Below, one piece after another: positions 37,806-43,162 of a stretch of DNA of 64,000 nt (its first letter is position 1; each line of letters begins with the position of its first letter). A model generated the notes under the pieces. It did not search any database and was not told where the DNA came from. It saw only the letters and a list, made by a program, of their open reading frames with translations. This DNA is from Candidatus Nitrospira allomarina (GTDB lineage: Bacteria; Nitrospirota; Nitrospiria; Nitrospirales; UBA8639). The DNA is taken from positions 2,105,001-2,169,000 of the forward strand of contig NZ_CP116967.1 in assembly GCF_032050975.1 (NCBI RefSeq), read 5' to 3'. The translations under genes were made by a program, and so were the position numbers.

Positions 37806-38672
37806 ATGAAATACCTATTAGCAGTTGATGGATCGGATCAATCGGTCGATGCAGTACGTGTGTTTGAAGCGCTGAGCCCGGCGGAGAGCCTGATGGTGTT
37901 ACATGTGGTGAATGTGCCGGGTATCCCCTATCCATCCATCGGGGCGGGGATCGCGAAAGATTTGAGATTGGCGGTGGACAAGGCGATGAGGGAAGAAGGC
38001 GAACGCATCATTGAGCAGGCATTGTCCCTCCTGCCTCTTCATCCGGGATCGGTCATGAGACGACTGGAAATGGGTACTCCTGCCGAGGTCATTCTCACCA
38101 TGGTCAAGGAGAAGGGAACCGATCTCGTGGTGTTGGGCGCCAGGGGTATTGGTCAGATTCGAGAGCAGATGTTCGGGAGCGTTTCGCATCGTGTGATGAC
38201 GCATGCGTCGTGTTCGACCCTGATCATTAAGAAGCCCACTCGCAAGATCCAGCAGGTTTTAATTCCTGTTGAAAGTCTGGAAGACGGCGAGGTGGTGGTG
38301 CGGTTTTTGAAAAAAAAACCATTCCGGGAGCCCATCACAGCGACCGTTCTGCATGTCATTCCGTTTTCAGAACCGGTCTGGCCGGTGGGTGCGATGATTT
38401 CTCCGGAATTTCGAAAAGAGATGATCGCCTATGGGGAGAAGTTTACGAACGGGCTCAGCGCGGAATTGAAGCAGATGGGGCATGAGGCCAAAGGAGTCGT
38501 CGTCGTCGGGGCACCTTCACACACGATCATTAAAGAAGCGAACAAATATGCTGCTGATGTAATCCTGATGCGAACACATAGCCGGTCCGGCGTGAGTCGC
38601 TTTCTTTTGGGAAGCGTCTCCCATTCCGTGGTGCATCACACTGAGTCCTCAATTTTGTTTGTGCGTGAATGA
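37806..38672 (+). CDS. Tandem universal stress protein
   Basis: The 288-residue protein has two Usp domains. Both end in the nucleotide-binding pattern: GARGIGQIREQMFGSVSHRV in the first half and RTHSRSGVSRFLLGSVSHSV in the second. Each is preceded by a DLVVLG or DVILMR strand. The class binds ATP. It follows the oxidoreductase operon by about 110 bases, and GGGAGA lies upstream of the ATG. Two related tandem Usp genes occur at 52996 and 55299. Confidence 0.93.
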   Translation: MKYLLAVDGSDQSVDAVRVFEALSPAESLMVLHVVNVPGIPYPSIGAGIAKDLRLAVDKAMREEGERIIEQALSLLPLHPGSVMRRLEMGTPAEVILTMVKEKGTDLVVLGARGIGQIREQMFGSVSHRVMTHASCSTLIIKKPTRKIQQVLIPVESLEDGEVVVRFLKKKPFREPITATVLHVIPFSEPVWPVGAMISPEFRKEMIAYGEKFTNGLSAELKQMGHEAKGVVVVGAPSHTIIKEANKYAADVILMRTHSRSGVSRFLLGSVSHSVVHHTESSILFVRE

Positions 38673-38813: not shown

Positions 38814-39224
38814 GGGCAATCTTGATTTCAGTCGCACGTCCTCCTGCATCCGCTGGCGACACATTTTTTGGCGATTGTGCAACTCTGTCCGGCTACACTC
38901 CCCGGAGAGGTCGATCTGGTCCCTTTGGAGTGGTAGACTAGAAACTGGCTCCCCGGTCCTGCCAAATTTGTCGGCCTGTTCAGGCCACTTTCCTAAAGAT
39001 CGTCTAGGTATTGGGAGCTAGTGGGTTCTTTTGTATGTGTCCCTATATGGCATTCCGGCCCAACATATGAGGGTGCTGGAGGAATATCAGGGGGCCGTAT
39101 AAGCTGGTGGGCCTTCGAGGCGCTCAGAAGCTGACAGGCGACAAAAAACTAGATTGTCCGTTATAATAAAAGAAATGGATAAAAAGGAGGAGTAATTCCG
39201 TTTGTATGAGAAGGATATCAATAC
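38814..39224. other. Intergenic stretch with a possible -10 box
   Basis: No ORF of substance is seen. TATAAT occurs at 39162-39167, about 60 bases before the protease-domain gene, without a good -35. AAGGAGG at 39184-39190 is too far from the ATG at 39225 to be its ribosome site; AAGGA at 39211 is closer. Confidence 0.4.
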
Positions 39225-39908
39225 ATGATTAATAAAGCGGACAGGAAGAAGGTCTCATTGCTTCTGGGGTTAGTCTTGACCCTCAATGTGGTGTGTGCCA
39301 CCAGTCTTGGGGCCAGTCCGTCTGTTCGTCAGATTCCGCATCTGATTATTCCAATCCTGGGGACATCTCTCAACAAACAATTCAGGCCGGTGGGCATGGT
39401 AAGCCAGGTGGTGATTGATGTCTATGAGCGTCAGGATCGCAACGGCCTTCAAATCCAATTTCATACCGAACCAGGAAATTTTTCCTTGTTTGCCCGTCAG
39501 TCGATCCATGCAGCCATCACTCGGGCGCTGGCTGCTGCCAATCTTCCGTCGGAATCCTGGACTGTTCTCCTGAAATTTCCTTATACCGGCCTCACGGTTT
39601 ATGGGGAAAGTCTTTCGGCCATGGTGGGCCTGAGCGTGGTGTCCATGATCAAGGGAGATCATCTCCTGGAAGGGCGGGCCCTCACCGGAACGATCACGGA
39701 AAGAGGATCGATCGGAGCTGTGGGAGGGCTTCAACTCAAAATTTTAGCCGCCTACGAAAATCACTTTGAGCGTGTGTTGGTTCCCAGCGAGTATGATGTA
39801 CGGGATGGAGATTGGCGTACCCCGTTTTTGATGCAGGTCTCCCCTGTTGGGACGATCGATGAAGCCTACTTTGGGCTGACCGGTCATCATTTGGCGACCC
39901 TTCCCTAA
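39225..39908 (+). CDS. Exported Lon-type (S16) serine protease domain protein
   Basis: The 227-residue product has a signal peptide (residues about 10-30, SLLLGLVLTLNVVCATSLGA). The rest aligns in layout with only the proteolytic domain of Lon. The Ser of the dyad is Ser131 (GESLSAMVGLSV, where Lon has GPSAG), and the Lys is Lys172 in GAVGGLQLKILAAYE; the spacing (41) is close to that in Lon. TGTITERGSIG is the conserved loop. No AAA+ domain and no partner ATPase are present, so it would work without ATP, outside the cytoplasm. The substrate is unknown. Confidence 0.8.
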   Translation: MINKADRKKVSLLLGLVLTLNVVCATSLGASPSVRQIPHLIIPILGTSLNKQFRPVGMVSQVVIDVYERQDRNGLQIQFHTEPGNFSLFARQSIHAAITRALAAANLPSESWTVLLKFPYTGLTVYGESLSAMVGLSVVSMIKGDHLLEGRALTGTITERGSIGAVGGLQLKILAAYENHFERVLVPSEYDVRDGDWRTPFLMQVSPVGTIDEAYFGLTGHHLATLP

Positions 39909-40093
39909 GACCTACCTTTCAGTTTTCCCGCCGTTGCTCTGTAGGATGGATTCTGGCTTCCTGCCCAGGTTTTTTGCGTGAAAAATTAAGTAAAAACATT
40001 TCAACTAAGCAAATATTCTTAAATTGTGCCAACAGGCCGGAGTCCTATCGGTTGAATTGGTCCATCCGCTTGCGAGTTCCCTTCAGAAATTTT

Positions 40094-41419
40094 TTATGGG
40101 AATTTTGACATCGTCGGAGGGAGGTTTTCTTTGGTCAGTGTTAAAAAATGTGTTGCGCAGGAGATGCAGGGATCATAACTGCGAATCAGTTCTTCGCATT
40201 TCATTGCGGTTTCCTGATCGTTGAGATGAAGGATGTCTGGCAGGAGGTTTCGAAGATCGTCCTCCATGCGGCGTTGATTTTGGGAGGTTGGCGGCACAAT
40301 CTTGGCAAGGCAAATGGTGCCATCAGCCTTGACCTCATAACGATGGTATAAAAGGCCTCGCGGGGCTTCGGTCGCGGCCATACCGGTTCCGGCGCGGAGT
40401 GTTACTGGCACGTTTGGAGAAGTTGGCCGCTCATACCGGTCAATGAGTCGAAGAGCCTCGTCAAAGGCATAGAGCACTTCCACCGATCGTGCCACGATAC
40501 CCATGGACGCGCGGTTGAACGGGAGGACTAATCCCGTGCTCTGTAAGACGTCTTTGGCCAACAACGAGAGCTGGTCCTGGTTGAGAGCGAGCCGGGCTAA
40601 CGGCCCTGTGAGATAAGATTTTCCATTCAACGTGCAGTGGAGGGCATTGGAATAGGGTACTTGTTCTTCATGGAAATGGTGTTCAAACTCCGAGGCGGCC
40701 ATGCGGTGTCCCCGATTGGTGACGACGTCGCCTTCATTCATCGGATATTCAGAAGGCCCCCGAAGGGCGAGGAAGGTATAGGCCTGTTCGGGATCTTGAA
40801 ATTCAAACCCGCTCACCCACCTAAGCGTTTCCGCAGCGGCATCCCTGGCCCATAGGAATTCGTCCTTCAGCTCATGCAAGGCATTCCTTGTCGGCACTTG
40901 GGAGAATCCGCCGATCTTTACCGAAACCGGATGCACTGATCGTCCCCCTAACAGCGTTAACAGATCATTGCCCGCCTTTTTCATTCGAAGCCCTCGCTTC
41001 ACAAGATCGGGGTGTGAGCGGGCCATCTCAAGCCCGCTGTCGAATCCTAAGAAATCCGGACCCTGGAGCATATAAATGTGCAGAACATGACTTTCGATCC
41101 ATTCCCCGCAATACAGGAGTCGACGTAAATCGCGAAGGCTTTGTGGCATCTCCACATGGAAGATTTGTTCCAGGGCATGGACTGCACTCATTTGATAAGC
41201 CACCGGACAAATACCGCAAATACGGGCCACGATATCGGGCACTTCGTTAACGTGACGTCCCTGGAGGAAGGCTTCAAAAAATCGTGGAGGTTCAAAAATC
41301 CGGAGTTGCACATCCCGGACCTGACCATCCTGAACGGTGATATGAAGGGCTCCTTCCCCTTCTACCCTGGCCATCATGTCGATTTTGATGGTTCTCGATT
41401 TATCTGGAGTCCCAGGCAT
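40094..41419 (-). CDS. hydA: Group 3b-type [NiFe] hydrogenase, large (alpha) subunit
   Basis: The 441-residue subunit holds the Ni-Fe site. The L1 motif is RICGICPVAYQMSAVHALE, and the L2 motif DPCISCATHFL lies close to the C-terminus, with the short tail usual in F420/NAD(P)-linked group 3 enzymes. The ATG at 41419 has GGAAGG upstream and overlaps the small-subunit gene by 20 bases. It is the last gene of the gamma-delta-alpha block. Family members (sulfhydrogenases) oxidise H2 with NADP+ or NAD+ and can also reduce polysulfide. Maturation genes hyp are not in this window. Confidence 0.95.
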   Translation of the reverse strand: MPGTPDKSRTIKIDMMARVEGEGALHITVQDGQVRDVQLRIFEPPRFFEAFLQGRHVNEVPDIVARICGICPVAYQMSAVHALEQIFHVEMPQSLRDLRRLLYCGEWIESHVLHIYMLQGPDFLGFDSGLEMARSHPDLVKRGLRMKKAGNDLLTLLGGRSVHPVSVKIGGFSQVPTRNALHELKDEFLWARDAAAETLRWVSGFEFQDPEQAYTFLALRGPSEYPMNEGDVVTNRGHRMAASEFEHHFHEEQVPYSNALHCTLNGKSYLTGPLARLALNQDQLSLLAKDVLQSTGLVLPFNRASMGIVARSVEVLYAFDEALRLIDRYERPTSPNVPVTLRAGTGMAATEAPRGLLYHRYEVKADGTICLAKIVPPTSQNQRRMEDDLRNLLPDILHLNDQETAMKCEELIRSYDPCISCATHFLTLTKENLPPTMSKFP

Positions 41420-42245
41420 CGCTTTCCTTCCGGAAAGGCTGAACCGATCCGTTGATTCCTCGAAAACGGCGAACCATTTCCAGGGGTATGAGTTGCAGCT
41501 GCTCATGAAATTGTTTGGCCAGAGATCCGGTATTTGGGGGCACTCCTGGAATTACTGAATCCTGTTCGGCGGGGCCAAAGCACCCATAGCACTCCCGGCC
41601 CATAGCGGGGCAGATGGCCCCGCACCCGGTACGCGTCACCGGTCCAAGACAGGGCATGCCCTTCGCGACCAGGACGCAGACATGTCCCTGGCGTTTACAG
41701 TCCAGGCATACACTGTGTGCGGGAATGCTGGGTGTGACGCCTCTCAGTAAATCGGTGAGCACTCGAAGGAGTTGTGGCTTATCAATCGGGCATCCCCACA
41801 ATTCATAGTCCACCTTGACGTGTTCGGAAATAGGAGTCGATGTGCTCAGGCTGTGGATGTATTCGGGGCTGGGATACACCGTTCGCTTGAAGGCTTCCAC
41901 ATCGCCCCAGTTCCGAAGAGCCTGAATGCCCCCGGAAGTCGCACAGGCACCGATGGTGATCAAGGTTGTTGTCTGTTGCCGGAGATCGAGAACTCGAGAG
42001 AGATCTTCAGGGCAGGTAATGGAGCCTTCAACGAATGTTATATCATACGGGCCAGGCTGCATATTGCTGGAGGCTTCGGGGAAATAGGCGATGTCGAGGG
42101 CTTCTCCCAAAGCCAGTAAATCGTCCTCCATATTCAGAATGCTTAACTGGCATCCGTCACAAGAGGCAAACTTCACCACGGCAATTCGGGGGCGGGGCCT
42201 GGTTGAAGAATGCTGAGTTGGGGTCGTTGATCCATCCATTGTCAT
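41400..42245 (-). CDS. hydD: Group 3b-type [NiFe] hydrogenase, small (delta) subunit
   Basis: The 281-residue subunit carries three Fe-S clusters. The proximal cluster cysteines are in SCDGCQLSIL and GACATSGG. The others are in WGCPIDK, CLDCKRQGHVC, GMPCLGPVTRTGCGAICP and CYGCFGP. It lies between gamma and alpha. There is no Tat signal, so the enzyme is cytoplasmic. Confidence 0.94.
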   Translation of the reverse strand: MTMDGSTTPTQHSSTRPRPRIAVVKFASCDGCQLSILNMEDDLLALGEALDIAYFPEASSNMQPGPYDITFVEGSITCPEDLSRVLDLRQQTTTLITIGACATSGGIQALRNWGDVEAFKRTVYPSPEYIHSLSTSTPISEHVKVDYELWGCPIDKPQLLRVLTDLLRGVTPSIPAHSVCLDCKRQGHVCVLVAKGMPCLGPVTRTGCGAICPAMGRECYGCFGPAEQDSVIPGVPPNTGSLAKQFHEQLQLIPLEMVRRFRGINGSVQPFRKESDAWDSR

Positions 42246-42270
42246 TGCGGGCTATTCTTCATTCACAATT

Positions 42271-42287
42271 CCCCCTTAAAAAGGGGG
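42271..42287. repeat. Short hairpin CCCCCTTAAAAAGGGGG between hydG and hydD
   Basis: A 7-bp perfect stem with a 3-base loop lies in the 80-base spacer of the hydrogenase genes. It resembles the short CCCCCTTTTTAAGGGGG repeats found in many genomes. It could tune downstream expression as an attenuator or mRNA end, but it has no clean T tail. Confidence 0.5.
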
Positions 42288-42325
42288 CCAGGAGAATTTT
42301 TTCAGATCATTTCTTCAGGCTCTAT

Positions 42326-43162
42326 TTACACACCCACTTTTCCGAAATACGGTACCACCCGGTCTAACCGCATCACGGGTCCGTCCTTACAGACAAAGAA
42401 TGGCCCAAGCTGACAATGCCCGCAGAGTCCGATGCCGCATTCCATATGCCGCTCCAACGACACATACATAGCGTCAGGGCGCAGACCTTGATGCGAGAGG
42501 GTATTACAGGCAATCCGCATCATGATCTCCGGTCCGCACATCATGACCAGCGTATTGGCAGGGTCCAACTGCAGTTGGTCAAACAATTCGGTGACCACGC
42601 CCACATGGCTATGCCAGGTCTTTCCGGGTTCATCGCTGGTCAATAGTACCTGTGTGCGGGGTTGGTAGCGCCAGGCATCAAATCGTTCCCGGTAGAGCAG
42701 GTCGTGGGGGGTTTTTACCCCGTGGAGAATGGTCATGGCGCCATACTCCTCCCGCCTCCGAAACATATATTCAATGGCTCCCACCACCGGAGCGCATCCC
42801 AATCCGCCGGTGACGATAAGCACATCCTTCCCTTGGGCTTCCCTCATGGGCCATCCAATCCCAAACGGCCCACGAACGCCCACACTCTCACCCACTTGCA
42901 TCGCACCCAATACCTGCGTGATCCGACCCACCACACGAATGGTGTGGTCCAGAAATTCCGGCTCCCCAGGGTCCGACACAATGGAAATGGCTACCTCCCC
43001 TACACCAAACACATAGAGCATGTTGAACTGCCCCGCCTCAAAGCGAAAAGACTCCCGATGAGTGGAATCTGTGAGTTGCAGGCGAAAGGTCACGATATCG
43101 GTGGACTCCTGTTTCCTGTCCACGATCACAGCCGGATGAATGAGGTAGGGATTAAAAGTCAT
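42326..43162 (-). CDS. hydG: Hydrogenase gamma subunit (FAD/NAD(P)-binding, ferredoxin-reductase-like)
   Basis: The 278-residue flavoprotein subunit has an FAD-binding beta barrel, SDPGEPEFLDHTIRVVG, GVRGPFGIGWP, then a nucleotide domain (VTGGLGCAPVVGAIEYMF; MMCGPEIMMRI). A [2Fe-2S] cysteine cluster near the end reads ECGIGLCGHCQLGPFFVC. It passes electrons to NAD(P)+. In usual group 3b operons the beta gene is directly upstream; here it is missing at that place, and the spacer (43163-43534) is empty. Confidence 0.94.
   Translation of the reverse strand: MTFNPYLIHPAVIVDRKQESTDIVTFRLQLTDSTHRESFRFEAGQFNMLYVFGVGEVAISIVSDPGEPEFLDHTIRVVGRITQVLGAMQVGESVGVRGPFGIGWPMREAQGKDVLIVTGGLGCAPVVGAIEYMFRRREEYGAMTILHGVKTPHDLLYRERFDAWRYQPRTQVLLTSDEPGKTWHSHVGVVTELFDQLQLDPANTLVMMCGPEIMMRIACNTLSHQGLRPDAMYVSLERHMECGIGLCGHCQLGPFFVCKDGPVMRLDRVVPYFGKVGV

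Follow-up and report, generated by a model that had tools for sequence, protein, structure and literature searches.

A predicted exported, stand-alone Lon (S16) proteolytic-domain protein in Candidatus Nitrospira allomarina and its relatives among the Nitrospirales

The window, i.e., the whole stretch of 64,000 nucleotides analysed here (Candidatus Nitrospira allomarina, contig NZ_CP116967.1, positions 2,105,001 to 2,169,000), carries on its forward strand an open reading frame (39225-39908, with its ATG at 39225 and its stop codon ending at 39908) for a protein of 227 amino acids with a very simple layout: a signal-peptide-like helix at the N-terminus and then a single, complete Lon (S16) proteolytic domain, with no other part. 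The features of the locus are:

37806..38672 (+): tandem universal stress protein (Usp, by Pfam), the upstream neighbour, co-directional, with a gap of about 550 bp to the gene below and no clear sign of a shared operon
39225..39908 (+): gene for the 227-aa protein, a Lon (S16) proteolytic domain standing alone and predicted to be exported
39225..39314 (+): predicted Sec signal peptide (from residue 1 to roughly residue 25-30)
39336..39902 (+): proteolytic domain of the Lon type (residues 38-226)
39609..39611 (+): codon of Ser129, the predicted nucleophile
39738..39740 (+): codon of Lys172, the predicted general base

Usp is the only recurrent same-strand gene directly upstream in the clade of the 227-aa protein (17 of 27 loci, at more than 500 bp), and downstream genes vary. 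Another clade has an NT5C-like gene and a response regulator as neighbours, and none is common across clades. Since neighbours differ between clades, the gene most likely forms a transcription unit by itself, and gene order points to no substrate; an operon partner as the substrate was rejected, none being conserved across the family loci. The promoter-like stretch at 39138-39167 and the terminator-like one at 39952 belong to classes of match that occur in numbers no higher than chance. Downstream lies a convergent [NiFe]-hydrogenase gene cluster (40094-43162, minus strand), comprising a large subunit recognised by Pfam (NiFeSe_Hases) together with small-subunit-like and flavin-reductase-like ORFs identified by eye, and upstream of the 227-aa protein's gene are 2-oxoacid:ferredoxin-oxidoreductase-like and glutamate-synthase-like genes.

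Lon_C is the sole Pfam family found in the protein up to E = 1 (1.8e-8; 34.6 bits, against a gathering score of 21.1), as an earlier note on this DNA had expected, and the profile match spans just residues 127-190. The same search returned no AAA+ module and no PDZ match, and residues 1-37 ahead of the Lon domain leave no room for a PDZ; a LON domain is likewise absent from the protein and its family. The best NCBIfam models are archaeal LonB (TIGR00764), SepM (NF041438; 30.6 bits, or 29.7 in the search of the genome, against a cut-off of 200) and sporulation LonB, all scoring far under their full-length cut-offs, which is what a bare domain should give. When solved structures were searched by sequence, it matched Lon proteolytic domains, with LonB of M. 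jannaschii and A. fulgidus at the top. The AlphaFold2 model (pLDDT 89, pTM 0.80, from a 54-sequence alignment) consists of a helix at residues 4-26, a linker modelled with low confidence and then the entire Lon proteolytic domain, whose best match by VIA-align is B. subtilis LonBA (8dvh_A; Z 21.6 over 172 residues, rmsd 2.4), with Z 20.7 for E. coli Lon (1rr9_A) and about 18 for the Lon-like domains of RadA and ComM; Foldseek also pairs model residues 38-226 with Lon. By each criterion tested, i.e., Lon_C score, dyad spacing and fold, the protein belongs to peptidase family S16, and by its domain make-up it falls outside LonA/LonB, LonC and SepM/YlbL.

Within the domain, G127-E128-S129-L130 aligns to G-D-S-A of M. 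jannaschii LonB, placing Ser129 at the position of the GDSA serine, and the serine of the classical DGPSAG motif in relatives aligns to the same residue; in the clade of the 227-aa protein the motif is nearer to GDSA than to DGPSAG. Lys172 follows 43 residues further on, matching the spacing of S679 and K722 in E. coli Lon (numbering from PMC2605481). In an alignment of homologues (n=131), the position of Ser129 holds Ser in 127 of the 129 aligned and Thr in two, and Lys172 is kept in 126 of 126, while residue 131 may be S, G, T, E, A or R. The dyad first proposed, Ser131-Lys172, is therefore right in its invariant lysine and wrong in its serine: alignment, spacing and conservation rule out Ser131 as the nucleophile and indicate Ser129 instead, so that the Ser131 mutant proposed alongside would probe the wrong residue. 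Between orthologues, dN/dS is 0.04-0.10 over residues 36-227, so that the domain is under strong purifying selection, and 0.29-0.78 over residues 2-34, the N-terminal segment evolving far faster. The near-invariant dyad and this purifying selection mark the protein as a real and probably active enzyme. In the two Thr-containing members, L045:6334-7017 (+) and L050:92-778 (+), which come from another family of Nitrospirales, the motifs read EGATAEA and ESSTAEA and the Lys is kept; judged from these residues they may represent a Thr-Lys variant or an inactive form.

The N-terminus displays the features of a Sec signal peptide: a charged n-region (K4, R7, K8, K9), a hydrophobic stretch at about residues 11-25, and small residues providing candidate cleavage points after A25 (V23-C-A25) or A30 (L28-G-A30). 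Neither a lipobox nor a twin-arginine motif is found in this segment; Tat export was rejected accordingly, as was lipoprotein export, an automatic scan having retrieved a lipobox in only 1 of 125 homologues. The signal-like pattern recurs, in otherwise dissimilar sequence, in most of the 125 homologues, and the contrast in dN/dS between N-terminus and domain fits a signal peptide ahead of a constrained enzyme. Taken together, these features make export from the cytoplasm very probable.

Three other readings have to be weighed against an exported, cleaved and active protease. One is that the 227-aa protein is a catalytically dead Lon fold serving as a scaffold or binding module, the role proposed for the Lon-like domains in RadA and ComM. 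In its favour, these domains are among the structural matches to the model, and Thr replaces Ser in two members from other genera; however, Ser129 and Lys172 are retained at Lon spacing in nearly all homologues, down to about 21-27% identity, which makes this reading very improbable. Rather less so, albeit still unlikely, is that the N-terminal helix stays uncleaved, giving a periplasm-facing, membrane-anchored protease with the topology of YlbL and SepM, without their PDZ, and with membrane-bound substrates. The modelled helix 4-26 would be long enough for anchoring, both YlbL and SepM are membrane-anchored (PMC6051672, PMC11197336), and purified YlbL deprived of its transmembrane segment lacked protease activity in vitro (PMC6051672), so that, lacking helpers, such a domain may have next to no activity or depend on the membrane. 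Against an anchor, the hydrophobic core is short, AxA-like sites lie just past it in most homologues, and the N-terminal segment is poorly conserved.

Least credible is a cytoplasmic protein partnering an AAA+ protein encoded elsewhere, its signal peptide being a chance hydrophobic start. Lon domains normally act with AAA+ modules (PMC2605481), but signal-like N-termini recur family-wide despite their unconserved sequence, and the conserved neighbours at the family loci include no recognised AAA+ gene.

The genome, a single contig (C1) of 4.55 Mb, encodes three such proteins (C1:2144225, C1:1944408 and C1:2673781), as well as two Lons of full length and, in a RadA-sized frame of 472 aa, one match below threshold. 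In the tree, the three paralogues fall in separate lineages, each common to other members of the genus. Among 295 sampled Nitrospirota genomes, a strong match (E below 1e-30) is present in about 97 of the 108 Nitrospirales and in 0 of the 187 outside the order, where the best match is 7e-23; the family is thus restricted to Nitrospirales with respect to the rest of the Nitrospirota only. Several small genomes (1.7-2.2 Mb) are found among the Nitrospirales that lack it. In 20 non-Nitrospirales genomes analysed in detail, the matches are mainly frames of at least 660 aa (full-length Lon) or RadA-sized ones, along with three short frames of 115, 272 and 263 aa. Among the named records that encode the protein are Nitrospira moscoviensis, which has at least three loci, and a single 'Nitrosomonas' record (L097), which falls inside the Nitrospirales sequences in the tree and whose label is probably a binning error. 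Fold, dyad, purifying selection, paralogous family and restriction to Nitrospirales within the phylum were all computed directly.

One homologue (G027:C60:88392-89027) contains four in-frame stops alongside several intact copies elsewhere in its genome and is probably a decayed paralogue, which would mean that family copies are gained and lost. In a sub-group (L046:6440-7414 (-) and L047:4652-5434 (-)), an extra Cys-containing segment, e.g., WLCMLPNGTNLYSDRGGGPDC, lies between leader and Lon domain; it presumably resembles a DUF4124-type module, and the active site of this sub-group is the classical GPSAG. A plasmid search with the 227-aa protein gave no match, and a mobile or plasmid origin was rejected; with two distant relatives as queries, the matches listed were mostly Lon itself or unannotated places, and included two PDZ-domain proteins of Paenibacillus.

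We favour, with a probability of roughly 0.75, a Sec-exported, ATP-independent Ser129-Lys172 protease of Lon fold devoted to limited processing or clean-up in the periplasm. Following Sec export and probable cleavage of the signal peptide, the mature protein would act in the periplasm of Nitrospira-type bacteria as an ATP-independent Ser-Lys protease. Because an unfoldase is absent, its cuts would be limited to unfolded or flexible stretches or to peptides, and such limited cutting would most likely serve to process or clean up particular proteins that are periplasmic or exposed at the membrane, in a mode likened to that of SepM and YlbL (DdcP). Export, activity, oligomer state and substrate type are what we infer here for the 227-aa protein; that it processes a protein of the surface or the periplasm, as the earlier note suggested, is plausible, and the gene neighbourhoods indicate no substrate. 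The exported stand-alone Lon protease domain described in the earlier note finds support, at the level of sequence and model, in profile, fold, dyad, N-terminal features and conservation in Nitrospirales.

A bolder proposal, which we advance tentatively and with some doubt, is that these are Nitrospirales-specific minimal periplasmic Lon proteases, motor-free and adaptor-free, several per genome and each devoted to one extracytoplasmic substrate, working—perhaps as a bare-domain ring—without ATP or PDZ. An exported protease of the favoured kind would show that a Lon proteolytic domain needs no partner to function outside the cytoplasm; it would also give the Nitrospira-type bacteria, among them nitrite oxidisers and complete ammonia oxidisers, a set of envelope proteases specific to their lineage. 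The 227-aa protein would also offer a small model for how a Lon proteolytic domain functions without its motor.

The earlier note's view that few exported, ATP-free Lon-type proteases have been described is only partly right, given several precedents. SepM of Streptococcus is an extracytoplasmic S16 protease without AAA+ that cuts a signalling peptide (PMC11197336), and YlbL (DdcP) of Bacillus, also without AAA+, is thought to be extracytoplasmic and requires its putative catalytic Ser234 for function (PMC6051672). With these the 227-aa protein shares a Lon S16 domain with a Ser-Lys dyad and the lack of an AAA+ motor, and like them it would act outside the cytoplasm; unlike them (about 340 aa, with a PDZ), it has no PDZ. 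MtaLonC of Meiothermus taiwanensis has no ATPase activity and degrades unfolded substrates, and LonC resembles our protein in ATP-independent proteolysis (predicted for ours) and as a structural match to the model; however, it has 719 aa and no transmembrane regions, forms a hexameric chamber and bears a large, non-functional AAA-like N-terminal part devoid of ATPase motifs (PMC3391209), whereas here that part is absent and only leader and proteolytic domain are present. LonB/LonBA of archaea and B. subtilis provides the best profile (TIGR00764), the best VIA-align match (8dvh) and the GDSA-nearer motif, yet the 227-aa protein is predicted to be exported and has neither the AAA+ module nor the internal membrane segments. 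RadA and ComM have Lon-like domains of the same fold, which are parts of DNA helicases, while the 227-aa protein has a conserved dyad and no attached ATPase. Single-domain Lon_C proteins made up 39 of 117 in a 2008 genome survey (PMC2605481). A search of the open-licence literature retrieved no description of this family, queries for stand-alone, secreted or periplasmic Lon giving unrelated matches only among those listed. ATP-free extracytoplasmic Lon domains are therefore known already, and what is unusual here is the lack of any companion domain, PDZ included, together with the paralogous expansion in Nitrospirales, whose family is very probably a pared-down relative of the cell-surface Lon-type proteases.
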